From Thermoanaerobaculia bacterium (GTDB lineage Bacteria > Acidobacteriota > Thermoanaerobaculia > Multivoradales > J023), in NCBI GenBank assembly GCA_028066595.1, contig JALCBJ010000006.1:91785-155784 (forward strand): 64,000 nt of DNA, in the 5' to 3' direction. The notes below the pieces were generated by a model that saw only the letters and a list, made by a program, of their open reading frames with translations, was not told the DNA's origin and searched no databases. The position numbers and the translations under genes are program-made. Of this stretch, positions 20,419 to 35,124 are shown one piece after another. Numbering within the stretch: position 1 is the stretch's first letter; every line of letters begins with the position of its first letter.

Positions 20419-22137
20419 TCAGAACGGCTTGAAGCCCACCGAACCAAAACGTTCCATGCCGTAGAGGTGTGCGATCGGGTACGCGTAGGCCATCACAATG
20501 AGCACGACGGCGACGACCGTCCAGAGGCCGAAGCGGTCCCAAAGGCCGGCCCTTTCGGGCTGGCCTTCGACCGGGATGGCGAAGTCGAAGGACGGCGGCT
20601 CGATCTTCTTTCCCACCATCAGCGTGCCGAGGATGACGAGGAGAAAGAAGAGGGAGGAGACGAACAAGACGATGCCTCCATGGGCGGAGAGTACGGTCAG
20701 TCCCTGCCACTGATCGGCCACGGGAGAGCCTTGGAACTGGCCGGAGAAGACGCGGCGAGGCATGCCCATGATCCCTGTCACGTGGTTGACCACGGCAAAG
20801 AGGATCATGCCGAGGAACCAGAGGTACGGCTGCAGAGTCGCCAGCGGCTTGAACGCCAGCTCACGACCGATCAAGCGCGGCAGGATCCAATAGGAAACAC
20901 CCATGAAGGTGAGGGCCGTGGCGGTGCCGACCGTAAGGTGGAAGTGACCCATGATCCAGGCGGTGTTGTGCACCATGGTGTTCATCGCGAACGCAGCGTT
21001 GATGGCACCACCGAAGCCGCCGACACCGAACGTGACCATGGCCAGTGCGACGGAGGCGAACAGCGGGTCCTTCCACGGCAACTTGCGTAGCCAGCCAAAA
21101 AGCCCCCTGCCACCACGCAGGCGGCCGGCCAGCTCGATGGACGCGGTGATGGTGAAGGCGGTCACCAGGCTGGGAAACATCACCGCGTAGGTGGTGACGG
21201 TGTGGAGCAGCTTCCACTTGGCGTCGATACCCGGGTCGGAAAACTGGTGATGGAACCCGACCGGCGTCGAGAACAAGATGAACAGGACGAAGACGACGCG
21301 GGTCAAATGATCGCTGAACAGGCGCCCACCGATGTGGCGCGGCATGATCGTGTACCAAACTACGTAGGCAGGGACGAGCCAGAAATAGGTCAGCGGGTGG
21401 CCGAACCACCAGAACCAGGTGCGCGCCACCACAGGATCGACGGTGTCGATGAGCCCCAGGGACCAGGGAATCAGCATTCCGACCACTTCCACCGCCAGGC
21501 CCGACGTGGCGAGGATCCAGATGATCACGGAGGTCACCATGCCGTGGGCAGGCAGAGGCGTCGGAACGCCGGGATTCTCCTTCTTCCAGACGATGAAAGT
21601 CCTCAGGAGAACGGCGCAGAAGCCCCAGGAGCCGACGATCAGCAACGTAGCGCCGACGTAGAAGCTCCAATGTGCTTGGAGCGGAGGGTAGAAGGTATAG
21701 AGCACCGTCGACGAGCCGGAGAGGATCGCCAAGGCGGTCATGCTGGAGCCGAAGACCGCCGTCCAATGGGAAGCCCAGGCTAGCCCCTCCCATTCCAACT
21801 TTCCGAAACCGAGCCGGGCCAAGAGATAGCCCAATCCCATGATGAAGAAAGTCGTGAAGACCAGCGCCAGCAAGACGCCATGTGCCGTCACAGAAAGGTA
21901 GTACATCTTCTCGGACCGGAACGGAAGGTCGATGTCGGCCCGCGACAGCGATTGCATGACCGCCATTGCCGCACCGAGACCGAAGGCACCGATGGCGATA
22001 CCGAAGTTGTGAAACTCCAGCCGGAATCGATCGAATCGGTCGCGACGAGCGATGTCCAGCGGTGACGGATTCACCAGTGCGCCGACGGTCTCGGCGTCCA
22101 GGTGCTCGTGTTCCAGACCGGTGACTGCGTGACTCAT
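20419..22137 (-). CDS. cbaA: ba3-type (B-family) heme-copper oxidase subunit I
   Basis: 572-residue catalytic subunit with about 13 helices; reduces O2 to water and pumps protons across the inner membrane. The CuB site has the cross-linked His-Tyr pair in WWFGHPLTYFWLVPAY, the two CuB histidines in FSTPVGFHHQFSDPG, and the heme ligands in NTAWIMGHFHLTVGTATALT. GVLLALVFTTFFIMG holds part of the low-spin heme site. The motif set and the GHPLTYFWLVPAY pattern match Thermus-type B oxidases, not cbb3 CcoN or A-type. It is the last gene of the nine-gene operon, coupled to subunit II by ATGA (22134-22137). Symbol is by homology. Confidence 0.93.
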   Translation of the reverse strand: MSHAVTGLEHEHLDAETVGALVNPSPLDIARRDRFDRFRLEFHNFGIAIGAFGLGAAMAVMQSLSRADIDLPFRSEKMYYLSVTAHGVLLALVFTTFFIMGLGYLLARLGFGKLEWEGLAWASHWTAVFGSSMTALAILSGSSTVLYTFYPPLQAHWSFYVGATLLIVGSWGFCAVLLRTFIVWKKENPGVPTPLPAHGMVTSVIIWILATSGLAVEVVGMLIPWSLGLIDTVDPVVARTWFWWFGHPLTYFWLVPAYVVWYTIMPRHIGGRLFSDHLTRVVFVLFILFSTPVGFHHQFSDPGIDAKWKLLHTVTTYAVMFPSLVTAFTITASIELAGRLRGGRGLFGWLRKLPWKDPLFASVALAMVTFGVGGFGGAINAAFAMNTMVHNTAWIMGHFHLTVGTATALTFMGVSYWILPRLIGRELAFKPLATLQPYLWFLGMILFAVVNHVTGIMGMPRRVFSGQFQGSPVADQWQGLTVLSAHGGIVLFVSSLFFLLVILGTLMVGKKIEPPSFDFAIPVEGQPERAGLWDRFGLWTVVAVVLIVMAYAYPIAHLYGMERFGSVGFKPF

Positions 22138-22649
22138 GGCGTTTCGGCCTCAGTCGTCGAGGAGGGTGCTGCAGCGCCGGCCGGTTCCACGATCAAGGTT
22201 CCCTGCATGAGGTGGTGGGACAGTCCACAGTATTCGTTGCACACGATCAGCTTCTCGCCGGGCTCGTGGAAGGTGATCATGAACTCGGTGACGTACCCAG
22301 GCACCACGGTGGCATTGGCATTGGTACCGACGATCTGAAATCCGTGCAGCACATCGGGGCTGGTCATGCGAAAGGTCACAGGACGCCCCTGCGGCACGCG
22401 GATCGTCCGGGGGTAGAAGACGTACAGCTCGGAGCGAACCACCACGGTGACGGAGCCGTCATCGTGGATCGTCACGCCCGGATTCGCGAACTCCGAATCG
22501 GTGAAGACCGTCGCGGGATCGATGGTCTCCATGTGGCTCGGCGGCTGAACCGCCTGGGTGACCGAGGCAATGACGATGGCGGTGAGGAAACCGACGATCA
22601 TCACCGTGGCACCCCACATCCAGAATCGTTCATAGATGTCGACTTTCAT
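22134..22649 (-). CDS. cbaB: ba3-type oxidase subunit II (CuA)
   Basis: 171 residues from the ATG at 22649 (MKVDIYERFWMWG). One N-terminal helix (about 8-32) anchors a periplasmic cupredoxin domain. The CuA site is complete: the first His in SPDVLHGFQIVGTN, then CNEYCGLSHHLMQG giving two Cys, His and Met. IRVPQGRPVTFRMTSPDVLH closely parallels Thermus ba3 subunit II. It accepts electrons from a soluble cytochrome c or cupredoxin. ggag lies nine bases before the ATG; an upstream extension to 22721 overlaps the small-subunit gene and is not needed. Confidence 0.93.
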   Translation of the reverse strand: MKVDIYERFWMWGATVMIVGFLTAIVIASVTQAVQPPSHMETIDPATVFTDSEFANPGVTIHDDGSVTVVVRSELYVFYPRTIRVPQGRPVTFRMTSPDVLHGFQIVGTNANATVVPGYVTEFMITFHEPGEKLIVCNEYCGLSHHLMQGTLIVEPAGAAAPSSTTEAETP

Positions 22650-22662
22650 GCTCGGCGGCTCC

Positions 22663-22863
22663 TCAATGCGGTGCGCCTCGAGGAAGGAACTCGAGGAAAT
22701 AGAGTGCGAGCCACCCGACAACGAACAGCAAGCCGTAGATCGCCACGATCGCCAACGTGCCCGTGGGGTGACCCAGGTCGTCGAGCGGCGATTCGTCGTC
22801 GGCCAGCGCCGGCCGATCGGGCTCGCCGGGCGCTCCGGGTCGCAGGATCACTTCATCTTTCAT
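22663..22863 (-). CDS. Small single-helix oxidase subunit (ba3 subunit IIa-like)
   Basis: 66 residues from the ATG at 22863 (MKDEVILRPG), with gaggt shortly upstream. A charged, Pro/Asp-rich first half precedes one transmembrane helix, GTLAIVAIYGLLFVVGWLAL. Position directly before subunit II and topology fit the IIa/auxiliary subunit that completes the helix bundle in ba3 oxidases; sequence homology at this size is not decisive. It lies 7 bases after the porin gene and 13 before subunit II. Confidence 0.75.
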   Translation of the reverse strand: MKDEVILRPGAPGEPDRPALADDESPLDDLGHPTGTLAIVAIYGLLFVVGWLALYFLEFLPRGAPH

Positions 22864-22870
22864 GGTGACC

Positions 22871-24091
22871 TCAATTCCCGAACGAGTAGGTTGTGAAGAA
22901 CATGAGCTTGTCGATGTCGACACCGAATCTGTCAGCGTCGTAGCTCGCGAGCTTCAGCGCGAAGACCTGTCCCCACTCCGATTTCCAAGCCAGCTGACCG
23001 TTGATCTCGGTGCCGTAGTCCAGACTGCGGAACTCAGCTTGGTGATCGAGCCACGCGACGAGGCCCGACCAAGGTCCCTTCTTGCAGGTGACCTTCAGAG
23101 TCGTGGTTTCAAGGCCCAACGACGGCGTGGAAAGGAAGAGATCGGTCCAGCCGTTGAACTTGTGCAGGGTGGCATGAGGGGTCTGGAATCTTCCCTCCGG
23201 CCCGCCTTCGAGGCTCTCCCAATCGGCCGAGACGGCCAGTTTGGCACCGCCGGTCTCCCAGCCGACAGTCGCATTCCCATGCAGGTAGCCGGCGTCGACC
23301 TCGCGCGGATTGTCGGCCGCATCTTCCTGCTGGGCTGCGTCCAGCTCCCAACTCCAGCGCCCGGCCCGGCCACGCCACTCGACTCCGGTGGTCAGCGTGG
23401 AAAGACTCGCGGCCTCGTCGAAGTCCAGCAGGTAGCCGTAAGCGGTGATCTTGCCGCCGAGCCTGTCCGAGCCCCACTGGATCGGAACGGTCAAGAAGTG
23501 GTGCGAAGCGTCGACCCGATCGCCGAAAATCCGGTGCACGTCCGTGACGAACGCGTAGTCGACGTCGAGGCGTGGAGTGGCACTCCACTGAATCCGTACG
23601 GCGTCGAAACTCTGGTGATTCTGGCGCCAGGCCACGGCGCCGACGAAGCGCTGATCGCCGAGGTTGATCTCCTGGCGACCCAAGGTGGCTGTGACGCGGT
23701 CGTCCGACCAGCGCACATAGGCCTGGTTGATCTGCGTCAGCGTCGGGTCCGCGACCACCGGACGATCCGTGACGCCGTTGCCGTGGCCATCGCGACCCAC
23801 GTTGTTGTATCCATCGTCGTCGGGAATACCGGCTATGTTCTCGGCTTGCAGGAAGACCGACCAGCCCCGCCAGCGCGGAGTCCGGTACGAGAGAGCCGTG
23901 CGCAAGGTCGAGGCGTGGGCGTCGTCGCCAAACGACGCGTGGTCGACGTTCTCGAACCGATATCGCAAGTCGATCTTGATCTCGTGCGCTGGCGGCTCCG
24001 ATCCTTCGTCGGCTCCGAAGGACACCGAGAACGACGAGACGAGAACAAGACCCATCAGAACGATGCGGGCCGAGATAGGAGAGCAAGTCAT
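22871..24091 (-). CDS. Alginate-export-type outer-membrane porin
   Basis: 406 residues from the ATG at 24091. A signal peptide (ISARIVLMGLVLVSSFSVSF, cleaved near FGA) precedes a beta-barrel: alternating strands such as DLRYRFENVDHASFG, ATLGRQEINLGDQRFVGAVA, WRQNHQSFDAVRIQW and a final strand ending LMFFTTYSFGN with a near-terminal aromatic. The RQEINLGDQRFVG segment is typical of the Alginate_exp barrel family. It sits between the nap-like and oxidase genes, with an ATGA overlap to the napB-like gene, so I infer that it passes a small anion such as nitrate or nitrite; true alginate export is unlikely here. Confidence 0.8.
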   Translation of the reverse strand: MTCSPISARIVLMGLVLVSSFSVSFGADEGSEPPAHEIKIDLRYRFENVDHASFGDDAHASTLRTALSYRTPRWRGWSVFLQAENIAGIPDDDGYNNVGRDGHGNGVTDRPVVADPTLTQINQAYVRWSDDRVTATLGRQEINLGDQRFVGAVAWRQNHQSFDAVRIQWSATPRLDVDYAFVTDVHRIFGDRVDASHHFLTVPIQWGSDRLGGKITAYGYLLDFDEAASLSTLTTGVEWRGRAGRWSWELDAAQQEDAADNPREVDAGYLHGNATVGWETGGAKLAVSADWESLEGGPEGRFQTPHATLHKFNGWTDLFLSTPSLGLETTTLKVTCKKGPWSGLVAWLDHQAEFRSLDYGTEINGQLAWKSEWGQVFALKLASYDADRFGVDIDKLMFFTTYSFGN

Positions 24092-25035
24092 GGCAAAGAG
24101 TTCCTCAGCTGAGATATCTCGAGTCGAGTGGTGGTCGTCTGCTCCACGTGGCACTGACGACACCGCGCTCGTTCCGCATGGTCGGTGCGGATTTCCTCGC
24201 GGGCGGCAGGCCCGGAGTGGCAGGCGTGGCAGTTCTCACGCATGAAGACCCGGTGGGGGATCACCGGCGGTGCCAACGGGTTCAGCCGCTTGCCACGACG
24301 CAAATCTTGGCGCAGCCCGGCGAAAGAGTTAGCTCGCCAGGGCTCGTCGATCGCTTGAAACACGTGGCACTGCTCACAACGCGCCACCGTGCCCGCGACG
24401 GTGAAGCTCCGAGCCTCGACCGCGGCGATGGCGCCCATGCCCGCGGTCTCACCGTGCGGCGAGGGCGGTGAGAATCCGACGCCGGGGACCGAGATGCCCC
24501 GCTCGCCGTGACAGGAGATGCACGCCGGCCCAAAGCGTTCGTGGGGGATGACGGGCGGCGCACCGTCGAACAGCCGTCGCTCCGCTCGGACGGAAGCCGA
24601 CGATTTCTCGGCCGACGCCAGGCCCGGTGCGGAATTGCTTCGATCGGCGGTATCGGGCGTCGTGCAGGAGAAGAAGAATAGGGTGGCGAGGAAGAGCGCC
24701 GTTGTTTGAAATCCTCCTCTAGCTCTCCGCTTTGGTAAAGGGAGAGAACCAAGGCACTGCGTTCTTTGAAATCCCCCTCTCGAATGAGGGAGAGAGCCAA
24801 GGCGATCCCCCGCGACTCCCCCTTTCGGTTGAGGGGGAGAACCAAGGCGCTGCTTATCGTTGACTCCCCCTCCGGCTCTCCCTTTCGGAAGAGGCGGAGA
24901 GCCAAGACCGTCTCCGGCAACCGTCGGCCTCGCGACGGGAGGCGTTCCCCTGTGACGAGCCGCCCGACGACACGCACACCGAGTGCCCCCCTTTTCCCAA
25001 AGGGTGGTCAGGGTGGATTTCCGCGACCATCGCAT
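24088..25035 (-). CDS. NapB-like four-heme cytochrome c lipoprotein with in-frame repeat-coded N-terminus
   Basis: 315 residues from the ATG at 25035, 10 bases past the napA stop. Residues ~1-107 are encoded by palindromic repeats and read as LGSPPLPKGRAGGG-like units. A lipoprotein-type signal follows (TALFLATLFFFSC, Cys124). The mature part has two similar halves, each with PPVIPH (159-165 and 256-261) and two CXXCH sites: C172-H176, C220-H224, C269-H273 and C292-H296. NapB is normally two-heme, so this looks like an internally duplicated or enlarged NapB that passes electrons to NapA. No ATG, GTG or TTG lies between the repeats and the signal; an ACG ten bases after gaggagg is a conceivable start. 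It overlaps the porin start by ATGA. Confidence 0.75.
   Translation of the reverse strand: MRWSRKSTLTTLWEKGGTRCACRRAARHRGTPPVARPTVAGDGLGSPPLPKGRAGGGVNDKQRLGSPPQPKGGVAGDRLGSLPHSRGGFQRTQCLGSLPLPKRRARGGFQTTALFLATLFFFSCTTPDTADRSNSAPGLASAEKSSASVRAERRLFDGAPPVIPHERFGPACISCHGERGISVPGVGFSPPSPHGETAGMGAIAAVEARSFTVAGTVARCEQCHVFQAIDEPWRANSFAGLRQDLRRGKRLNPLAPPVIPHRVFMRENCHACHSGPAAREEIRTDHAERARCRQCHVEQTTTTRLEISQLRNSLP
24707..25026 (-). repeat. Cluster of five short palindromic (REP/MITE-like) repeats
   Basis: Related palindromes of about 40-55 bases lie at ~24707-24757, 24767-24805, 24812-24852, 24860-24910 and 24983-25026. Shared features are a C-rich arm (tccccct), a short loop such as ttcggttg, a G-rich arm (agggggaga) and a tail (gccaaggcg or accaaggcg); the last unit has the arms cccccctttt and aaagggtgg. 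All five lie between napA and the signal-peptide codons of the napB-like gene. They are read in one frame without a stop. Confidence 0.85.
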
Positions 25036-25045
25036 CACTTCACCG

Positions 25046-27469
25046 TCACACCCGCTCCAAGCGAACCGCACACTTCTTGTAGTCCGGTTCCTTGGAGATG
25101 TTGTCCATGGCGTCCAACGTAAGCTCGTTGATTCGCTTCGACTCGTCGAAGAACGGCACGAAGACCGTGCCCCGGGGCGGTTTGCCGCGACCATCGACCT
25201 TGGCGGCCAGCTCCAGCTCGCCGCGCCGACTCACGAGCTTGACGCGGTCGCCGTCGTTGATCCCCAATTCGAGCGCGTCGGCACGGTTCAGCTCGACGTA
25301 GGCTTCCGGTACGGCCTGGTGCAGCTGGTCCACCCGACGGGTCATGGAGCCGGTATGCCAGTGCTCCAGAACGCGTCCGGTGGACAGCCAAAGCGGGTAG
25401 TCGACGTCGGGCATCTCGGCCGGCGGATGGTAGGGCCGCAGCCAGACCGCCGCCTTTTCGCCGAAGCCCTTGGCCTTGTAGAAGTGGACGCCCTTCTCCT
25501 TCTTCACGTACGGATCGAAACCTGCGGCATAGCGATAGGGCGTCTCCTTGCCGTCCACCACCGGCCAGAGTTTGCCTCGCGTTTCTTTCAGTTGCGCGTA
25601 GCTCGCCAGATCCTTGCCCACACCCAGGGTGAAGCTGCGGTATTCCTCGAACATCGGCTCGTGCCAGTCGTCGTCGAGAGTCCAGCTCTCGTACCAGGGG
25701 AAGAGATGACCCATGCCCATGCGCTTGGCCACCTCCATGATCTGCCACGCATCTTCCCGCGCCTCGCCCGGCGGTGCCACGAGCCGGTTCCACTGCTGGG
25801 TACGGCGTTCTGTGTTGCCGAAGACACCCTCGCGTTCGACCCAGGCGGCTGCCGGTAGCACGAGGTCGGCCACGGCCGTGGTGGGCGTGGGATAGATATC
25901 GGAGACGACGACGAAACGTCCGTCGCCGGGTTTGCGCTCGAAGCGGTGGAGATTGGGCAACGACACCCAGGGATTGGTGGTCTGAATCCACATCGCCTGC
26001 ACGTCGCCGCGTTCCAGGGCACGGAACATGTCCACCGTGTGGAAGCCCGGCTTCGGATTGATGGTGCCAGGTTCCAGGCCCCAGATCTCCTCGGCCTTCT
26101 TGCGATGCTCCTCCTTCATCACCACCATGTCGGCGGGAAGCCGGTTCGAGAGCGTGCCGACTTCGCGCGCGGTGCCACAGGCCGAGGGCTGACCGGTCAG
26201 AGAGAGCGGGTTGGCGCCCGGGCGTCCGATCTTCCCGGTCAGTAGATGCAGGTTGTTGATGAGGTTGTTCATCCACGTGCCGCGCACGTGCTGGTTGACA
26301 CCCATGCACCACAGCGACACGGTGCCGCGGTCCGAGGCACCATAGATCTCGGCGAGGAGATGGATCTGCCCTTCCGAGACTCCGGTGATCTGAGACACGC
26401 GGGCCGGCGTGTACTCGCGCAGGAAGGTGCGCATGTCGGCGAGAGAACTCTCGCTCGCCTCGTCCTTGAAGCCGTAGCGCGCCGCAGGCTCGCCCGACGC
26501 GTCATAGGCTCCGTAGCCGATACGCTCCAGCGACTCGATGCCGCGCCGAAACGTCAGGTTCTCGTCGATGAACGCCTGGTCGATGCTGCCGCTCTCCACC
26601 AGGAGATGCAGGACTCCGTTCGCCAGCGCCAGGTCGGTACCGGGCTCGAACTCGATATAGACGTCGGCGAAATCGCTGGTCGGCGTACGGCGCGTGGCGA
26701 TGTCGACGATGCGAATGCCCTTGCCTCGGGGATTCTGTCGCTTCGTTTCCAGGATCCGGCTGAAGAGCACGGGATGCATCTCGGCCATGTTGTTGCCCCA
26801 AAGCACGAAGTCGTCGCCGGCCTCGAAGTCCTGGTAGCAGCCCATGGGCTCGTCGCTCTGGAACTGGGTCATGAAGCCCATGACCGCCGACGCCATGCAC
26901 AGCCGCGCGTTGGGGTCGAGGTTGTTGGAGCGCATACCACCCTTCACCCATTTGAGCGCCGCGTAGCCGTCGTGCACTCCCCATTGGCCCGACCCGTAGA
27001 CCGCCACGCCCTCGGGACCCTTCTCTTCCAACGCTTTCTGGAACTCTGCCGCCACCAGGTCCAGTGCCTCGTCCCAGGAGATCTGTTCTTCGCGGCCGTC
27101 CGGGTACCGGCGAACGGGATGGGTGAGCCGATCTTCGCCGTAGAGAAAGGCCGGCAGGTGATAGCCCTTGACGCACAGAAGCCCTTGGTTCACCGGGCTC
27201 TTCTGGTCGCCTCGAACCGCCATCACCTTGCCTTCTCTGACACCCACCTCGACGCCGCACCCCGTGCCACAGTAGCGGCAGGGCGCTTTGCCCCAGGTGA
27301 GGTCCGAATCCCGCAGTGCGTCCTGGTCGCCGCGGATCTGCTCGGCCTTCTCCCGGTCTGCGCAGGAGAAAGCGGCCACCGCAGTTCCTGCGGCCCCAGC
27401 ACCGCCGAGGCCTTTCAGGAAGCGCCGGCGATCGATCCGAATCCCGTCGTCGTTTCGATGGCCTGTCAT
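25046..27469 (-). CDS. napA: Periplasmic nitrate reductase catalytic subunit
   Basis: 807 residues; Mo-bis-MGD enzyme reducing nitrate to nitrite. A Tat signal (IRIDRRRFLKGLGGAGAAG) is followed by a possible lipobox-like AFSC. The [4Fe-4S] site is C64-X2-C67-X3-C71...C99 (APCRYCGTGCGVEVGV, GLLCVKGY). The Mo-ligand cysteine is Cys191 in DPNARLCMASAVMGFM. The NapA-type YQDFEAGDDFVLWGNNMAEM, TIYPTPTT-like VVSDIYPTPTTAVADLVLP and FGNTERRTQQW are present. The ATG at 27469 has ggag seven bases upstream and follows the octaheme gene by 11 bases. No napD chaperone or napF/G/H/C is nearby; electron input probably comes via the adjacent cytochromes. Confidence 0.93.
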   Translation of the reverse strand: MTGHRNDDGIRIDRRRFLKGLGGAGAAGTAVAAFSCADREKAEQIRGDQDALRDSDLTWGKAPCRYCGTGCGVEVGVREGKVMAVRGDQKSPVNQGLLCVKGYHLPAFLYGEDRLTHPVRRYPDGREEQISWDEALDLVAAEFQKALEEKGPEGVAVYGSGQWGVHDGYAALKWVKGGMRSNNLDPNARLCMASAVMGFMTQFQSDEPMGCYQDFEAGDDFVLWGNNMAEMHPVLFSRILETKRQNPRGKGIRIVDIATRRTPTSDFADVYIEFEPGTDLALANGVLHLLVESGSIDQAFIDENLTFRRGIESLERIGYGAYDASGEPAARYGFKDEASESSLADMRTFLREYTPARVSQITGVSEGQIHLLAEIYGASDRGTVSLWCMGVNQHVRGTWMNNLINNLHLLTGKIGRPGANPLSLTGQPSACGTAREVGTLSNRLPADMVVMKEEHRKKAEEIWGLEPGTINPKPGFHTVDMFRALERGDVQAMWIQTTNPWVSLPNLHRFERKPGDGRFVVVSDIYPTPTTAVADLVLPAAAWVEREGVFGNTERRTQQWNRLVAPPGEAREDAWQIMEVAKRMGMGHLFPWYESWTLDDDWHEPMFEEYRSFTLGVGKDLASYAQLKETRGKLWPVVDGKETPYRYAAGFDPYVKKEKGVHFYKAKGFGEKAAVWLRPYHPPAEMPDVDYPLWLSTGRVLEHWHTGSMTRRVDQLHQAVPEAYVELNRADALELGINDGDRVKLVSRRGELELAAKVDGRGKPPRGTVFVPFFDESKRINELTLDAMDNISKEPDYKKCAVRLERV

Positions 27470-27480
27470 CTCAGGACTCC

Positions 27481-29133
27481 TCAGGGGCCGGTGTGCGCAC
27501 CGTCCACGTTCTGGCCGTAGCGTTCTTCCATGTGACGGCGGATCTCTTCCATCTGCGCCGCCGCGCCTTCTTCGAACCAGGCATGCTCCGGACGGGCGAG
27601 GATCTCGCTGATCAGCTCGTCGACCCTGTGTCCTCCGGCTCCGCCGGCCTCGGCCAGCTCCCGCGCTTGCGGGATCAGCTCCATGTAGAAGCGCTCGGCG
27701 ACTTCGTACATGCCGTGCCAGTGGGTGTAGTCGGGCGCCATCATCGACGCACCGTGCCGCGCCCGCCGGCCCTCGTGGTGCCAGAGATAGAACCAAGTCC
27801 ACTCGATCTCTTCGTCGAACTGCGTCTTGGTCAGAAGATTCTCGGCCGCCAGGGCACCCATGATGGCCTTGCCCGGCTTGGCGAACTTTTCGTTGTACAG
27901 GATCACCAGGTCGTCGTACTGCTGGTAGAAGGCGTTGACGTAGGACGGCGTGTGGCAGTGACTACACACCGCCTGCATGCGGGTGCGCTTCGCCTGCCAG
28001 GTATCGGCGATCAGCGCCTGGCGCTCCGCGGGGTCCGTGGAGGTGACCAAGGCACCATGGGCGTCGGTATCGAGCAACGCACTCACGGGCGGACGGTTGG
28101 TCCACGAGATGCGGATCCGCGGATCGTGTGTCACATCGCCACCGTTGCGGCTGTGGCCGGACATGTGGCACGTGGCGCAGGTGGGCGCGGCGGAATAGTC
28201 CTCGCCCAGCACCCAATCCTTCGCCTCCAGATTCATGTCGTCCTTCAGATCGCGATAGGCGACGCCGTGCTTCGACTCCTCGTAGATTTCCTTCTGTGGA
28301 TGATCCGGGCCGAGGTGACACTTGCCGCAGTTCTCCGGTTGACGCGCGCGGCGTGGCGAGAAGTCGTGACGGCTGTGGCAGGCGCTGCACGAGCCGCGAG
28401 AGCCGTCGAGGTTGAGTCGACCGATTCCGGTATTGGGCCAGGTGCCCGACGTGAACAGCGGCTTGCCGTTCGGATCCTTGACGATCCTCGCCACTGCGTC
28501 GAGGTTGGTTGGCTGGCCGTTCTCGTCCGGCTGCAGATCGTCGACCGTGATGCTTCCCCCGTCAGTGGCCTGAAGAGCCACTTTCGAGCCGTGGCATTGC
28601 TGACAGCCCAGGGACGCGCTAGCCATTCCGTTGACTTCGTTGAGCGCCAGGCCAGGGGTTGGCGAATGGGGATTGAACGGCTCTCGCGAACCTTCCACCG
28701 TCTCGGCGAGGAAGTTGTCGAGCGACGCCAGAATGTTGCCACCGGCGGCGTGGTGGCTCTCCTCGAACTCCTGAGCTTCCTCGATGTGGCAGGCCGAGCA
28801 ATCCTTGGGCGTGACGACGGTAGCGATCGTCGCATTGAAGTGCGCGAAGGCGTCTACATCGCCATCGGCGGCCTTGTGGCAGTCGAGGCAGCCGACGCCC
28901 GATACCGCATGTGTCGAGCCCTCCCAATGGGAGACAATCCCTGGCGTGCTCTGGACGTGGCAATCGACGCACTGGCGCGAGGACGCCGGTACCGCCACGT
29001 GGGGCTCGCTGAGACCTGCTTCCTCGGCCCTTCGGACCACTTCCAGTCTCTGTACGAAGAGTAGCGATACCAGGAAGAGAATGGAAAGGACGATAAGAAT
29101 CGTGCGCTTCTGTTCGAGGGTCATGTGCGACAT
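27481..29133 (-). CDS. Membrane-anchored octaheme cytochrome c, hydroxylamine oxidoreductase (HAO)-like
   Basis: 550 residues with one N-terminal membrane anchor (about 11-28). Eight CXXCH sites are present: C55, C82, C112, C177, C249, C269, C319 and C390 (first Cys of each), spaced as in HAO rather than NrfA. The C-terminal helical region contains TWFYLWHHEGRRARHGASMM and APDYTHWHGMYEVAERFY, with Tyr469 and Tyr476 near where HAO has the tyrosine that cross-links the P460 heme. HAO-family enzymes oxidise hydroxylamine or hydrazine, or reduce nitrite; co-transcription with napA favours reduction of nitrite or hydroxylamine here, but direction is inference. It starts 29 bases after cytochrome b. 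Confidence 0.88.
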   Translation of the reverse strand: MSHMTLEQKRTILIVLSILFLVSLLFVQRLEVVRRAEEAGLSEPHVAVPASSRQCVDCHVQSTPGIVSHWEGSTHAVSGVGCLDCHKAADGDVDAFAHFNATIATVVTPKDCSACHIEEAQEFEESHHAAGGNILASLDNFLAETVEGSREPFNPHSPTPGLALNEVNGMASASLGCQQCHGSKVALQATDGGSITVDDLQPDENGQPTNLDAVARIVKDPNGKPLFTSGTWPNTGIGRLNLDGSRGSCSACHSRHDFSPRRARQPENCGKCHLGPDHPQKEIYEESKHGVAYRDLKDDMNLEAKDWVLGEDYSAAPTCATCHMSGHSRNGGDVTHDPRIRISWTNRPPVSALLDTDAHGALVTSTDPAERQALIADTWQAKRTRMQAVCSHCHTPSYVNAFYQQYDDLVILYNEKFAKPGKAIMGALAAENLLTKTQFDEEIEWTWFYLWHHEGRRARHGASMMAPDYTHWHGMYEVAERFYMELIPQARELAEAGGAGGHRVDELISEILARPEHAWFEEGAAAQMEEIRRHMEERYGQNVDGAHTGP

Positions 29134-29162
29134 AGGACTCTCTCGGGACGTGGTTCAGCAGG

Positions 29163-30257
29163 TCAGTGAGCGACCGCGGCTTCCCAGACGGTCAGGGCGA
29201 TGATCAGGAGGACGGCGACGATGCCGATCCACACACTGGCTTCCTTGAAGCGCGTCTTGCGGCGGATCCAGTCGTCGATAAAGGGCCAGACATACATGAT
29301 GAAGACGATGAAACCCGTGGTGACGATGGCTACCGTGCCGGAGAAGAGCTTCAACCAGCGGAAGGCGACATAGAAGAACCACTCCGGTTTGATCACCTCG
29401 GGTGTCACCAGAGGATCTGCCTTGGGTCCCATGGTGGCGGGCAAGATGCAGGCGAGGGCCGTGAGGATCACCATCAGCACGAGGCCGATGGTCAGCTCGC
29501 TCATCACGTGTTCGGGGAAAAAATTGAAGTACTTCTTTTCCGAGTCTTTCTCGTCGGCGAATTCGTACTCAGTGACCCCCTGGAGACGGATGATCATGAT
29601 GTGAATCGCCACCAGGATCGTCAGCACCACGGGCAACACAGCGGCATGAAGGACGAAGAAGCGCGGCAGTGTGTGCTCGTTGTAGCCGTCGCCGCCCAAC
29701 AGCATCGTCTTCATGAAATCGCCGACCACCGGTACGCCACCCGCGATGTTGGCTCCCACCGCGGCGCCCCAGTAGGAAAGCTGCTCGTACACAAGGCAGT
29801 AGCCGGTGAAGCCCAGCATCAAGGTACAGATGAGGAGCGTCATGCCCACCATCCAGTTGATCTCGCGCGGTTTCCGGTATGCGCCGGTGAAGTAGACGCG
29901 CATCTGATGCAGGATCACGGCGGCGATCATGAACGTCGCGCCCCATTTGTGGAGCCCCCGGATCAGCCAGCCGTAGGCTGCCTCGTTCGTGATGTAGCGC
30001 ACCGACTCGTACGCCGTCTCCGGTGCCGGCTGGTAGTAGACCGCCAAGAGGATGCCGGTCACGATCTGGACGATGAAGAGGTAGGCGGGTGTCCCCCCCA
30101 GTGCGAACCACCAACGCTTGAGGTGATTGGGGACCGGCTCGTTCGTCAGCTCCCGCAAGCTGTCGGGTTCGATGGGCAGCCGGTCCTGAAACCAATCGAT
30201 CACGGCGGATTGGCGTTCCGTTCCGTGGCTCGGACTCGAAGATCTCGCCTCGCTCAT
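29163..30257 (-). CDS. Cytochrome b of a bc-type quinol oxidase complex
   Basis: 364 residues from the ATG at 30257. The b-type core has four heme histidines in LHKWGATFMIAAVILHQMRV and FFVLHAAVLPVVLTILVAIH. A Qo-site PEWFF motif (VIKPEWFFYVAFRWLKL) replaces the usual PEWY. LGFTGYCLVYEQLSYWGA and GGVPVVGDFMKTMLLGGDGY complete the family pattern. At 364 residues it spans both the b6-like and subunit IV-like parts with about 8 helices. It overlaps the Rieske stop by one base (TGATG). It oxidises quinol at the inner membrane and feeds the Rieske protein. No cytochrome c1 gene follows; the octaheme protein takes that place. Confidence 0.93.
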   Translation of the reverse strand: MSEARSSSPSHGTERQSAVIDWFQDRLPIEPDSLRELTNEPVPNHLKRWWFALGGTPAYLFIVQIVTGILLAVYYQPAPETAYESVRYITNEAAYGWLIRGLHKWGATFMIAAVILHQMRVYFTGAYRKPREINWMVGMTLLICTLMLGFTGYCLVYEQLSYWGAAVGANIAGGVPVVGDFMKTMLLGGDGYNEHTLPRFFVLHAAVLPVVLTILVAIHIMIIRLQGVTEYEFADEKDSEKKYFNFFPEHVMSELTIGLVLMVILTALACILPATMGPKADPLVTPEVIKPEWFFYVAFRWLKLFSGTVAIVTTGFIVFIMYVWPFIDDWIRRKTRFKEASVWIGIVAVLLIIALTVWEAAVAH

Positions 30258-30862
30258 CAGGCCTCCTGGCGCTCTGAGGAGTCTGACTTCGGCAAGGTGC
30301 AGTAGAGGCAAGGGTCGTGGCCGGGACCGCGGGGCGCCTCGGGAGGTGATTCGAGGACCTCTCCCGGCCCGAGAGCCAACTCGTCCAGCGCGACCTCGAT
30401 GAACAAGAGACCCCGGTCCACCTTGAGGGAGTACTGCGGCAGCGACTGGCCGGATTCCGCGGGTGGCCCGCCGATGGCCTCTCCCTGCGGTGTGAAGACT
30501 CCGTTGTGGCAGGGACAGAAGAACCTGTTGTTCTGCGGTTGCCAGTGGACCTGGCAACCGAGATGCGGACAAGTACTGGACAGTGCGAGGAAAGCGTCGC
30601 CACCTCCCTGTCGGGTGATGTTCACCGTTCGACCCGATGGCGTGCGATACAGAAGGGCTTCACCCTCCGGGATCTCGGCCGCCTGAGTGACGAACATCCA
30701 ACCCGTCTCCGGTGGCCGCGCCGGAAACAGGAACCGGCCCATATAGGCCGCAAGAGTGCCGTAGGCCGCGGTCAGGCCTGCGGCCAGCCCGACCCGGCCT
30801 ATCCAGCCCAGGCTTTCCCGCCGAGTCTCGTCGGCACCTGATTCGATCTCCTGCTGCGCCAT
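30257..30862 (-). CDS. Rieske iron-sulfur protein
   Basis: 201 residues. A membrane anchor (about 22-42, GRVGLAAGLTAAYGTLAAYM) leads to a Rieske domain with both cluster motifs: CPHLGCQVHW and CPCHNGVFTPQG. A C-terminal extension (after KVDRGLLFIEVAL) carries DPCLYCTLPK, an extra Cys pair not found in standard Rieske proteins. First gene of the nine-gene respiratory operon; with cytochrome b it forms a quinol-oxidising complex. A perfect inverted repeat lies 36 bases upstream of its ATG. Confidence 0.93.
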   Translation of the reverse strand: MAQQEIESGADETRRESLGWIGRVGLAAGLTAAYGTLAAYMGRFLFPARPPETGWMFVTQAAEIPEGEALLYRTPSGRTVNITRQGGGDAFLALSSTCPHLGCQVHWQPQNNRFFCPCHNGVFTPQGEAIGGPPAESGQSLPQYSLKVDRGLLFIEVALDELALGPGEVLESPPEAPRGPGHDPCLYCTLPKSDSSERQEA

Positions 30863-31107: not shown

Positions 31108-32940
31108 TCATGGGTGCGTTGCGCCGGCAACACCACGCATCGTCACCGCCAGGCCGTTTCCTCGAATCAGGTCTGTATAGCGACCAGCTCGGATCTTCAG
31201 ATAATCCTCACTCACCCCGTCTGGCCAGACAACACGGACAGCCCCCGCCGACGAGTCGTCCACACCAACCGTCGCGAACAGGATCCTCGGATCGCTGGCC
31301 GATGCGTAGGATCCGTCGGAGCGCACCGTACGCCAACGGTAGGAACCATCAGCGAGTCGCAGCCCGACCCGAGAGCCGTAGAGATCACGAGGCTTGCCAC
31401 CCGGGGCGGCGGCACCCAAGGCTCGGACCCCGATCCATCCCTTGCCGTCGCCAGACCGATTCTTCAGTAGCCGTAGCGGACCCTCGACGTTGACGATCAC
31501 CGCGTCGGGATCGCCGTCGTTGTCTAAGTCACCGACTCCCAGGCCACGGCTCACCTCGGCCCGGCGGAACAAGTCACCCGCCTCGCGCCCGAGGTCGACG
31601 AATCGGATCTTCGAGCTCCCAGGCACCGTTTCGTTGCGGAAGATCTGATTCGGCTGGTGGAGGCGCCAACCGGGCCGGTCCTCACCCTCCGCGAGGATCC
31701 AGTGCTCGACGTCGGCGGCGCTCAACGAGTTGCGATCGAAATTCGTCACGGCGCCGTTCGCCACCAGGAGGTCGAGATCGCCATCGAGGTCGTAGTCGAG
31801 GAAGGCCGTGCCGAATCCGGTCATCATCCAGCTGGGGGCAGCAAGACCGCTCTGACCCGTCGCATCGAGGAAAGCACCACCACCGCGGCTGAGGTACAGG
31901 GTATGGGTTTCGCGCAGCAGGTGGGTAATCAGGAGATCGTCGAGACCGTCGCCGTTCACGTCACCGGAAGCGACTCCCATGCTGGCTTCGGGTTGCCCCC
32001 CGACGTTGAAGGCGAGTCCGGCGAACAGGGCGTCGTCTTCGAGGCGAATCTTGGCTGAGCGTCCGTTCTGCACCGGCTCGGTGCGATTGAGCCACAGTTG
32101 GTTGGCCATACCGTCGTTGGCAACGAAGAGGTCGATGCGACCGTCGCCATCGAAATCACCACTACCCACCCCCAAACCCGCCGCCGCCACGGTCAGTCCG
32201 GCAGATCGCGTGACGTCCAAGAACGTACCGTCACCTTGGTTTCTCAGCAGTCGATCTGACGCCGGACGGTAGGCCAGCGGACCGCAGTAGTCCAACTCTC
32301 CAGTAGCAGCACGGCAGGTCTTCGGGTTCTCGATGCTGGCTTCGACGTAGTTGCCGACGTAGAGGTCGAGTCGACCGTCGCCGTCGAGATCCACGAACGT
32401 CGCTGCGACGCTCCAGCCCGCGTCGCCCACGCCGCTCCCGGCTGCCGCGGTGACGTCTCGGAAAGTACCGTCCCCTTCGTTGCGCCAAAGCTGGTTGGGT
32501 CCGAAATTGGTGACGTAGAGGTCGAGGTCGCCGTCGTCGTCGTAGTCCCCGGTCGCGACTCCCATGCCGTAGCCCCGGGAACGGATTCCGGCGACCTCCG
32601 TGACATCGACGAAGCGCAACGAACCATCCGAGCTCGGCCCGATCAATTCGTTGCGAAAGAGCCGGTCCTGCCGCACTGGGCCGGGCGGTCGATCTCGTTT
32701 CAACGAGTGGCCTTGCGTCGCATAGAGATCGAGGTCGCCGTCTCCGTCGTAGTCGAACAGCGCCACACCACCTCCTGTGATCTCCACCAGATGCATCGAT
32801 CCGTCCATTCCGTTCCGGTAGACATGGTCGATACCGACCTGCTGCGCCACGTCGGCGAACGGTGGCTCGGCGTGCGCGGGCCCGCTCTGGGATGCGAGGC
32901 CGATCACTGACAAGCTCAGTAATGCGAACAGCGTCCTCAG
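31108..32940 (-). CDS. Secreted CRTAC1-type FG-GAP/VCBS repeat protein with ASPIC/UnbV C-terminus
   Basis: About 610 residues. Seven or so calcium-loop FG-GAP/VCBS repeats form a beta-propeller, e.g. FDYDGDGDLDLYATQ, TGDYDDDGDLDLYVTNFGPN, VDLDGDGRLDLYVGNY, GDFDGDGRIDLFVAND and LDYDLDGDLDLLVANGAV. The ASPIC/UnbV domain is at the C-terminus (SRVGLRLADGSYRWRTVRSD, then RVVWPDGVSEDYL). The start is probably CTG at 32940: ggagg lies six bases upstream, CTGA overlaps the TPR stop, and only from there is a full signal peptide (RTLFALLSLSVIGLAS) encoded. TTG at 32913 is the conventional alternative but cuts the signal. Role unknown; members are extracellular. Confidence 0.85.
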   Translation of the reverse strand: MRTLFALLSLSVIGLASQSGPAHAEPPFADVAQQVGIDHVYRNGMDGSMHLVEITGGGVALFDYDGDGDLDLYATQGHSLKRDRPPGPVRQDRLFRNELIGPSSDGSLRFVDVTEVAGIRSRGYGMGVATGDYDDDGDLDLYVTNFGPNQLWRNEGDGTFRDVTAAAGSGVGDAGWSVAATFVDLDGDGRLDLYVGNYVEASIENPKTCRAATGELDYCGPLAYRPASDRLLRNQGDGTFLDVTRSAGLTVAAAGLGVGSGDFDGDGRIDLFVANDGMANQLWLNRTEPVQNGRSAKIRLEDDALFAGLAFNVGGQPEASMGVASGDVNGDGLDDLLITHLLRETHTLYLSRGGGAFLDATGQSGLAAPSWMMTGFGTAFLDYDLDGDLDLLVANGAVTNFDRNSLSAADVEHWILAEGEDRPGWRLHQPNQIFRNETVPGSSKIRFVDLGREAGDLFRRAEVSRGLGVGDLDNDGDPDAVIVNVEGPLRLLKNRSGDGKGWIGVRALGAAAPGGKPRDLYGSRVGLRLADGSYRWRTVRSDGSYASASDPRILFATVGVDDSSAGAVRVVWPDGVSEDYLKIRAGRYTDLIRGNGLAVTMRGVAGATHP

Positions 32941-34640
32941 CTCGGGCCTCCTTTGTCTTTGCGAACCAGGCGATCGCGGTAGAAACGCAGCGTCTGCTCC
33001 ATGCCGGCCAGCTCATCATCGGGAGCTCCACCCGATCGCGCCTCGTCAAGCGCCCGCTCCTGGAGCGCTACTGCGTCGGCCAGCCGCCCGGAACCGAAGA
33101 GTGCCCGCGCCAGGACTTGCGCATGGGCCACCGACGGATCTTCACGTAGGAGCGCCGATGCAAGCTGCAGGGCGCGCTGCGGGTCACGTCGCGCAGGATC
33201 CGGATCGCCTAGGAGCACTTGGATCAAAGTTGCCACGAGCCGTGGATCGTCGCTCGAGGCAACGCCCTCTTCCAACGACTCGCGAACCGCCGCTGTATCG
33301 CCCGATCGCGCCAAAGCGTCGACGTGGGCCAATCGAACCCTCACATTGCCCGGGTCGAGGGTCAACGCCCGCGCCAGCTCACCGGCCGCTTCGGCGTGTC
33401 GGCCAAGCCGCGACAGTGCCCGCGCCTTGAGTGCCCGCGCCTCCACATCTTCCGGCGACAATGTCAGGCTCTGGTCGTAGTGCTGCAGCGCTTCTTCGTG
33501 ACGCCCGGTCATGGCCAGTGCGCGGCCCAGACCCAACTTTGCCTGCGGGTCACCGGGCGCCAGCCCGACAGCTCGGCGGTACGGTTCGACCGCGGCGGCT
33601 GGACGACCTGCGAGAGTCAAGAACTCACCCAGCTTGGCTTGAAGATCAGCGCGCCCCGGTCGAGCGCGTACGGCGTCGCCGACGGCTTCCAGGGCACCTT
33701 CGATATCACCCTGTACGAAGAGGATTTCTGCCAGGCCTCGTAGCGCGTCGGCGGTCTTGGGATCGCGACGTTCTTCATCGGCCTTCACTGCAAGGCGATA
33801 GAGACGTGCCGCCTCGTCGTAGTCCTCATCCAGCCGAGCCTTGACCGCGTCCGCCAGGTAGGCGCCGAGGTCGATCCTCTGCAGCTCGGCGATCCAGGTA
33901 TCGGGAAGAGGTACCGTCACCTCACCGCTTTCGCGTAAAGCGGCGCGTGCTTCGTCCATCCGACCCAATTCCCGGTAAGCCAACCCCAAGATTCGTCCGA
34001 CGGCACTGGCTTCGGGGGCCGCACGGCGTACCGCCTCGAGATGCGCTGCAGCATCGCTGAAGCGGCCCTGATCGAATGCGATACGGCCGAGGCCGAAGCG
34101 GGCGAACGCCTCCTCACCCGCACTGAGCGGCTTGGCGAGCAGCTGCTGAAAACTTTCCTCGGCTTCTTCGAGCCGGCCCGCCCGGCGGACGATCTCCGCG
34201 AGCCGCAGGTGCACCGTCGCCTTGTCGGGACGCAGCTCCGAGGTGACTCGCAGTGCCTGCTCGGCGCGTTCCAAATCGCCCATGTCCGTCCAGATCAGAC
34301 CCGAGAAATAGGGCCAGCGCGGTTCCGTCGGGTCGAGATGGCGGGCGTTGGTGAAGGCTGCTGCGGCGGGCGCTCTCAATTCGCTCAAGAGGTACAGGGA
34401 GCCGAGGTGGCCGTAGGCTGCACCTCGCTCGCTGTCGGTAGCAGCAACGGGAAGGCGGTCGAGCGCGTCCCGGGCATTGGAGATCCGCTGCCGGAACCCG
34501 GCCTCTGCTCCTTCCAGCGACGGTTCGGGTATCGGCACGAGCTCCTGTGCGTCCGAAGGCCCAATGATCGCCGAGGCCAGCACCCATCCCAGGAGGCGCC
34601 TACGAAGTCGCGTCCTCCGATGCTGTTTCGTCCTTGCCAT
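32937..34640 (-). CDS. Periplasmic or secreted TPR-repeat protein
   Basis: 567 residues from the ATG at 34640. The N-terminus (RTRLRRRLLGWVLASAIIG, cleaved near DAQ) is a signal peptide. About 12-14 TPR-like helical pairs follow, e.g. AAYGHLGSLYLLSELRAPAA, ATVHLRLAEIVRRAGRLEEA, EALQHYDQSLTLSPEDVEAR and a final pair near AHAQVLARALFGSGRLADA. There are no catalytic motifs. It precedes the CRTAC1 gene with a CTGA overlap, a TPR/CRTAC1 pairing that suggests a joint extracytoplasmic scaffold role. Its 5' end overlaps the fur-like gene by 41 bases. Confidence 0.85.
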   Translation of the reverse strand: MARTKQHRRTRLRRRLLGWVLASAIIGPSDAQELVPIPEPSLEGAEAGFRQRISNARDALDRLPVAATDSERGAAYGHLGSLYLLSELRAPAAAAFTNARHLDPTEPRWPYFSGLIWTDMGDLERAEQALRVTSELRPDKATVHLRLAEIVRRAGRLEEAEESFQQLLAKPLSAGEEAFARFGLGRIAFDQGRFSDAAAHLEAVRRAAPEASAVGRILGLAYRELGRMDEARAALRESGEVTVPLPDTWIAELQRIDLGAYLADAVKARLDEDYDEAARLYRLAVKADEERRDPKTADALRGLAEILFVQGDIEGALEAVGDAVRARPGRADLQAKLGEFLTLAGRPAAAVEPYRRAVGLAPGDPQAKLGLGRALAMTGRHEEALQHYDQSLTLSPEDVEARALKARALSRLGRHAEAAGELARALTLDPGNVRVRLAHVDALARSGDTAAVRESLEEGVASSDDPRLVATLIQVLLGDPDPARRDPQRALQLASALLREDPSVAHAQVLARALFGSGRLADAVALQERALDEARSGGAPDDELAGMEQTLRFYRDRLVRKDKGGPS

Positions 34641-35124
34641 GTCCGGCGCAATCCTCGCACATGCTGTGGATCTGCAAGGTGTGGCGATCCGGGTCGAATC
34701 CGTGGGCTCGGCAAATCTCGCGCTGCATGGCTTCGATGCCCGGGCTGACGAACTCCACGACCTTGCCGCACTCGCCGCACACCAGGTGGTCGTGGCGCAG
34801 TCCAGCGTGGACGTGCTCGTAGAGAAAACGCTGCCCGCCCATCCGCCGCTTCTCGACGAACCCGTAGCGCGCCATGAGGTCGAGGTTGCGGTACAGGGTC
34901 GCGCGCGAGATCTTCCGCCCGGAAGCTTGCATCGACCGCAGGAGCGCATCGGCGTCGATGTGGCTGTGGTGGGAGTAGATCTCCCGAAACAACGCCAAGC
35001 GTTCCGAGGTCACGCGATGACCGCGCTGCCGCAAGACGGCGAGGAATCGATCCAGCTCGGGAAAGGACACCGCCACCGCTCCTGCCGGCCGGTTGGGCGT
35101 GTCAGCGGCCTCGGAGAAGGCCAC
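34600..35124 (-). CDS. Fur-family transcriptional regulator
   Basis: 174 residues. The winged helix has RQRGHRVTSERLALFREIYS and KISRATLYRNLDLMARYGFV. The metal-binding dimer domain has the Fur HHDHLVC-type motif (RHDHLVCGECGKVVEF, residues 110-125) and two CXXC pairs, C116/C119 and C156/C159, for structural zinc. It could be Fur, PerR or Zur; the residues visible do not settle it. The 20-residue N-terminal extension is not conserved and starts inside the DUF937 gene; GTG at 35079 or 35073 is a possible shorter start. It is upstream of the TPR gene. Confidence 0.92.
   Translation of the reverse strand: MAFSEAADTPNRPAGAVAVSFPELDRFLAVLRQRGHRVTSERLALFREIYSHHSHIDADALLRSMQASGRKISRATLYRNLDLMARYGFVEKRRMGGQRFLYEHVHAGLRHDHLVCGECGKVVEFVSPGIEAMQREICRAHGFDPDRHTLQIHSMCEDCAGHGKDETASEDATS

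Follow-up and report, generated by a model that had tools for sequence, protein, structure and literature searches.

The window analysed here is a stretch of 64,000 nucleotides from a Thermoanaerobaculia bacterium (contig JALCBJ010000006.1). It carries a run of nine genes encoding a Rieske protein, a b6-type cytochrome b, an octaheme cytochrome c, the nitrate reductase subunit NapA, a NapB-like cytochrome, a porin and three subunits of a ba3-type oxidase. The conserved unit within this run is the first three genes (Rieske, cytochrome b and octaheme), referred to below as the trio. The reading that we prefer, and which we consider reasonably probable, is that the Rieske protein and cytochrome b would form a quinol-oxidising complex, in which an anchored octaheme replaces cytochrome c1 (or f) and feeds either NapB/NapA or the ba3 oxidase.

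A genome collection was scanned with the octaheme protein as query, and 80 loci were kept, the best segment of each being 69–78% identical. In every one of the 72 loci long enough to judge, the gene immediately upstream of the octaheme is that of cytochrome b; Rieske is linked to the octaheme in 71 of the 72, the exception being L049, which has a partial cytochrome b hit. The loci are titled Acidobacteriota, Planctomycetota, Gemmatimonadota, Deltaproteobacteria, Krumholzibacteriota, Chlamydiae and Omnitrophota, and those closest to the window are titled Thermoanaerobaculia or Acidobacteriota. They are mostly metagenome bins, and two loci titled Kuenenia group with other planctomycetes, so that the title of any single locus should not be relied on. 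Since the linkage holds in 71 to 72 of 72 loci and in several phyla, the association within the trio goes beyond chance.

NapA follows the trio in 30 of 75 loci, with napB next in 23 of 24 of those. Downstream of the 45 trios without napA, no other reductase was found to recur when the genes were grouped by sequence clustering rather than by annotation. Ten of the 80 loci have a porin in the neighbourhood of the trio. In a sample of 297 genomes from the phylum, the octaheme was found in 16 (13 trios and three orphans). NapA occurs in eight of these 16 genomes, in every case adjacent to the octaheme, versus eight of the 281 genomes without it (Fisher p = 1e-7, ignoring kinship), and a ba3-type oxidase occurs in five of the 16 versus two of the 281 (p = 5e-6, again ignoring kinship). 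CoxI of the ba3 type (at least 58% identity) is present in 7 of the 297 genomes; five of the seven have it no more than a few kb from the trio.

Links between oxidase and trio are rarer than those with NapA, being seen in six loci (five from the phylum sample, and L032), and these show several arrangements. The order is octaheme-IIa-II-I in G238, and IIa-II-I-Rieske-cytb-octaheme-napA-napB, all on one strand, in both G191 and G107, while in G152 the oxidase is divergent from the trio (L080 comes from the same bin as G152, judged by matching coordinates). G238 has two trios, whose octahemes fall in different clades of the octaheme tree, one followed by napA (L128) and the other by the oxidase. 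The earlier note had placed NapA/NapB and a ba3 oxidase in one operon with Rieske, cytochrome b and octaheme, and both modules are indeed repeatedly linked to the trio. Its refuting condition, that the order be found nowhere else and be broken in close relatives, gives a mixed result: L032 has the order Rieske-cytb-octaheme-napA-napB-IIa-II-I, which is that of the window minus the porin, and elsewhere the modules are rearranged. The exact nine-gene order was seen in the window genome alone, and G246, from the same family, has Rieske-cytb-octaheme-napA-napB-porin without the oxidase (L130).

The octaheme protein has eight CxxCH motifs and matches PF13447 at 82 bits, against a cut-off of 21.9. 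In a profile search of the PDB it is closest to IhOCC (4qo5, E = 6e-52) and next to Kustc0458 (6h5l), and its fold predicted with AlphaFold2 matches the same two structures. The model has a mean pLDDT (predicted local distance difference test) of 69, with values below 50 in the catalytic region, and served for fold matching only, not for haem geometry. In the C-terminal part, through which the cross-linking tyrosine of HAO (P460) would be located, the alignment is with IhOCC only. The core is nearly unchanged in 31 aligned linked octahemes, and residues of the catalytic region, the HAO-family GPDH motif and WHHEGRRARHGASMMAPDY among them, are invariant. This conservation argues for a catalytic site and not merely a relay, and the protein is predicted to reduce nitrite or hydroxylamine.

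The octaheme has an uncleaved N-terminal membrane anchor at residues ~12–30. All 31 aligned octahemes have a hydrophobic N-terminal helix, which is followed by Q-W-x-E-x-x-R in place of a cleavage site, and the anchor is retained in the trio-linked octaheme of G198, which is 45% identical. The orphan octahemes, without cytochrome b (G176, G042 and G062), have a signal-peptide-like N terminus and no such anchor. All three fall in one clade of the octaheme tree and represent one evolutionary event, so that the correlation is suggestive only of a tie between the anchor and the presence of Rieske/cytochrome b.

In the Rieske protein the cluster motif reads CPHLGC...CPCHNGVF. The two cysteines and two histidines that bind the cluster are present, but the serine and tyrosine of the usual GSxY are replaced by G and F; matched orthologues read CPCHNGxF or CPCHSGxF. 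The serine and tyrosine raise the redox potential (PMC12954380), and with both replaced a low potential, fitting menaquinol, is expected; the Rieske centre is therefore probably a low-potential one. In cytochrome b the haem ligands H103/H117 and H204/H219 are kept in 70 of 70 sequences, the spacing of 15 between the second pair is b6-like, and the best match in the PDB is cytochrome b6 (7r0w). PEWF, as in the window protein, is found in 69 of 79 sequences and PEWY in four. The final residue is a histidine in 102 of the 107 loci read, some of which are duplicates of one genome, in the context WEAxxxH (29163–29180 in the window). Given seven helices, this end of the protein would be periplasmic and beside the octaheme, and our guess is that the histidine is either a docking residue or a haem ligand. 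No gene for a monohaem c1 or cytochrome f was found in the operon, where the octaheme sits in that place.

The oxidase is clearly of the ba3 type. CoxI matches the Thermus ba3 structure 1ehk with E = 1.8e-131, compared with only ~1e-14 for A-type oxidases. Subunit II has a CuA motif, and we take the enzyme to be a cytochrome c oxidase and not a quinol oxidase. The small CoxIIa-like subunit scores 19.4 bits against PF08113, just below the cut-off of 20.7, and its gene is found at the same position in the relatives L032, L129 and L135.

NapA reaches 938.8 bits for the equivalog NF010055 (cut-off 904) and 914.2 for TIGR01706, slightly under the 930.55 needed, and it matches the PDB NapA 2nya in the 1e-235 range. 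A twin-arginine translocation (Tat) signal is visible, although the Pfam TAT_signal score is below its cut-off. No gene for NapD, NapC, NapG or NapH was found in the operon, and no NapD anywhere in the genome. In the divergent member G198, a 69-residue gene of NapD-like place and size lies between octaheme and napA (L141:5582–5791).

The NapB-like protein is a marginal match to PF03892 (25.3 bits, cut-off 25.1), and matches NapB in the PDB with E = 0.001. The pattern PPxIPH...CxxCH...CxQCH occurs twice, giving four haem motifs, not the two of dihaem NapB. Its two halves align at 98.2% probability as hhalign profiles, against 9–57% for control stretches of the octaheme, and the duplicated architecture is also found in orthologues from several phyla. 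The predicted signal is lipoprotein-like. The first ~110 codons of the gene hold four imperfect repeat units of ~45–60 nucleotides with a CCTTGGYTCTCYCCCT core, where 0.17 would be expected; at up to one mismatch the repeat has 36 matches in the genome and none in the reversed control. The units are in frame, with a plausible start codon before them and the hydrophobic signal stretch after them, and this insert makes the start codon uncertain. A similar-looking stretch is present at the same position in L064/L130.

From these motifs it would be expected that menaquinol is oxidised at Rieske/cytochrome b through a Q-cycle, and that one electron passes via the probably low-potential Rieske centre into the haem chain of the octaheme. 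The octaheme is the invariant partner of Rieske/cytochrome b and is anchored when linked to them, and the simplest reading of this is that electrons leave the complex through it. From there they could have three fates. They may reduce nitrite or hydroxylamine at the octaheme's own catalytic haem, may pass in the periplasm to the double NapB and to NapA, and so to nitrate, or may pass to the CuA centre of the ba3-type oxidase at low oxygen. Supply of the oxidase by the octaheme is proposed because the linkage recurs. Supply of NapB/NapA is proposed because of linkage and the missing NapC/GH, and has an experimental precedent in Campylobacter jejuni, where NapC is missing and the menaquinol-oxidising QcrABC complex supplies Nap (PMC6195509). 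The Qcr and Nap genes of C. jejuni are in separate loci, while the window has its genes in one run. QcrC is a dihaem-type cytochrome c, not an octaheme. With both terminal modules and the porin attached to one complex, the operon would encode a branched, proton-motive periplasmic chain to nitrate, nitrite and oxygen, for which NapC would be unneeded.

Several observations weigh against this proposal. Adjacency to NapA and to the oxidase is labile, changing at least 20 and at least five times respectively on the octaheme tree (a quick tree with many open forks), and other donors may serve each of them. Kinship was left out of both co-occurrence tests above. The trio-linked CoxI of G238 (C27, L129:8814–10411) is frameshifted, from either decay or an assembly error. 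The genome (7.5 Mb in 228 contigs) also encodes NrfA next to an NrfH-type protein, so that nitrite ammonification here does not depend on the octaheme, and from gene order and haem motifs a cluster on contig C192 resembles an alternative complex III with a caa3 oxidase after it. Complex formation, catalysis and co-transcription are inferred from the genes.

The alternative that survives best is that the octaheme is itself the terminal reductase of Rieske/cytochrome b, acting on nitrite (or hydroxylamine or nitric oxide), while NapAB and the ba3 oxidase lie beside it under shared regulation but draw their electrons from elsewhere. This would explain an invariant catalytic region, also kept by the orphan octahemes, and 45 of 75 trios with neither an adjacent NapA nor another recurrent reductase; in addition, NrfA is absent from six of the eight NapA-carrying genomes. 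The absence of NapC, NapG and NapH beside NapA and of NapD in the genome means that Nap needs another donor, and the linkage between oxidase and trio is repeated and independent of position, and we consider this alternative rather doubtful. The earlier note had suggested that the octaheme may serve as an electron hub. The octaheme's invariant, anchored association with Rieske/cytochrome b agrees with this, but the trios without NapA make it more likely that the octaheme is also an enzyme than a hub only. Replacement of NrfA by the octaheme was considered separately and rejected: NrfA is rarer with the octaheme (2 of 16 genomes versus 76 of 281), but not significantly so (p = 0.25).

It is improbable that the octaheme works in the HAO direction, oxidising hydroxylamine and passing electrons into a chain to nitrate or oxygen. 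It does belong to the HAO superfamily and the operon includes an oxidase, but among solved structures it is closest to IhOCC and to Kustc0458, which works in the reducing direction, rather than to HAO, and the linkage is to Nap and not to ammonia oxidation genes; a role as the HAO of nitrification is not favoured for the same reasons. It is also improbable that modules transferred separately came together by chance or only for a time and share no function, a view which the unique nine-gene order, the mobility of porin and oxidase and the oxidase-free operon of G246 might suggest, but which is at odds with the near-universal trio linkage, the recurrence of the same extra modules and the two junctions with four-base overlaps.

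The coordinates of the run are listed in Table 1. The earlier note had described nine reverse-strand genes with gaps of -4 to 29 bases and no internal terminator, and this is borne out: from Rieske to CoxI the junction gaps are -1, 29, 11, 10, -4, 7, 13 and -4 bases, and no terminator-like site was found in any intergenic gap. Its gene names agree with Pfam and NCBIfam, the NapB-like and CoxIIa matches being marginal. A scan for sigma-70 promoters gave no match, where about one would be expected by chance, and 13 near-matches to FNR-type boxes were found in the 64 kb (7.9 expected), none of them upstream of the operon. The genes are predicted to form one co-transcribed unit. Two same-strand genes lie upstream of the operon (31108–34949, reverse strand), which are not conserved beside the trio elsewhere; by eye, one has FG-GAP/VCBS-like repeats and the other is TPR-rich.

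Table 1. The nine genes and the repeat insert, with positions in the window.
Feature	Position	Strand	Family match
Rieske [2Fe-2S] protein, 201 residues	30257..30862	-	PF00355, 43 bits
b6-type cytochrome b, 364 residues, b6 and subunit IV parts fused	29163..30257	-	PF00033 and PF00032
Octaheme cytochrome c, HAO/IhOCC type, 550 residues	27481..29133	-	PF13447
NapA, periplasmic nitrate reductase catalytic subunit, Tat signal	25046..27469	-	NF010055
NapB-like tetraheme cytochrome, two NapB-like repeats	24088..25035	-	PF03892, marginal
Dispersed-repeat units (n = 4) in 5' part of napB-like gene	24700..24921		
Outer-membrane porin, Alginate_exp family	22871..24091	-	PF13372, 45 bits
Oxidase small subunit, CoxIIa-like, 66 residues, one transmembrane helix	22663..22863	-	PF08113, marginal
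Oxidase subunit II with CuA motif CNEYCGLSHHLM	22134..22649	-	PF00116
Haem-copper oxidase subunit I, ba3 (B) type	20419..22137	-	PF00115

A further large cytochrome b of the bc type was not found elsewhere in the genome, where the other match to PF00033 is a 221-residue frame. The earlier note had pointed to the absence of cytochrome c1 and napC; this is correct for the operon, but genes of the NapC/NrfH family are present elsewhere. NrfA (C153:5143–6567; L124:5074–6702), the neighbour of the NrfH-type gene, is a single 595-residue frame that matches PF02335 in two pieces, which suggests a divergent form with an insert; a similar partial match is seen in G059. On contig C21 (L125:2612–6512) a decaheme cytochrome (10 CxxCH), a 573-residue outer-membrane-like protein and a tetraheme protein of the NapC/NirT family are encoded together, a group resembling the porin-cytochrome conduits of extracellular electron transfer.

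The combination of an octaheme with Rieske/cytochrome b is already known from anammox R/b-3 and from Caldithrix abyssi. In R/b-3 of Kuenenia stuttgartiensis (Kuste4569–4574; PMC12954380, PMC8862662) the genes for a Rieske protein, a b6-type cytochrome b and an HAO-like octaheme are clustered without c1 or f, as in the window, and nitrite reduction has been proposed for the HAO-like subunit (PMC12954380, PMC8862662). The Kuste cluster has separate b6 and five-helix subunit-IV-like proteins, whereas the window has a single, fused cytochrome b. It also has a further multihaem cytochrome and an NAD(P) oxidoreductase, which are neither in the operon of the window nor recurrent neighbours of the trio. 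Its Rieske protein has the serine and tyrosine and a high potential (+303 mV), unlike that of the window, and the window trio consists of three genes, to which NapAB and the ba3 oxidase are attached.

Caldithrix abyssi (Cabys_2556–2564; PMC5317091), which was compared by description, likewise has a Rieske/cytochrome b pair within a nap cluster, next to eHao, and the same electron routes as here were proposed for it (PMC5317091). Both clusters are without NapC and without a NapB of the usual type. That of C. abyssi has napGH and napM and no oxidase, while the window has no NapG/H but a duplicated NapB, a ba3 oxidase and a porin. The statement in the earlier note that HAO-like proteins are normally in separate loci overlooks C. 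abyssi (PMC5317091) and the HAO-like subunit of anammox R/b (PMC12954380). IhOCC (from Ignicoccus hospitalis) and Kustc0458, the nearest solved structures by both sequence and fold, differ from the window family, which has an N-terminal anchor and is tied to Rieske/cytochrome b genes. Octahemes of Phycisphaerae found with a Hao model have been proposed as nitrite reductases, and no Rieske genes are mentioned in the available part of that source (PMC11266412). Searches of the open-access literature turned up no account of how widespread the trio is, of its link to a ba3 oxidase, of the duplicated NapB, of the anchor tied to Rieske/cytochrome b or of the near-invariant C-terminal histidine of cytochrome b.

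We suggest, tentatively, that the trio may be a distinct and widespread proton-motive quinol:nitrite oxidoreductase outside the anammox bacteria, with a nitrite-reducing octaheme as its exit subunit and with exchangeable NapA and ba3 modules. The octaheme would be coupled to the membrane part by its anchor helix, and perhaps by the C-terminal histidine of cytochrome b.

Periplasmic reduction of nitrate and nitrite is usually seen as being fed by quinol dehydrogenases that do not pump protons (PMC6195509). If the octaheme belongs to a Rieske/cytochrome b complex, many uncultured members of the Acidobacteriota, Planctomycetota and Gemmatimonadota would have a proton-motive form of nitrite reduction. 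The label ‘hao’ that annotation pipelines give to these genes would then point to quinol-linked nitrite reduction, not nitrification or anammox, and the R/b-HAO complex of anammox bacteria would be placed in a broader family.

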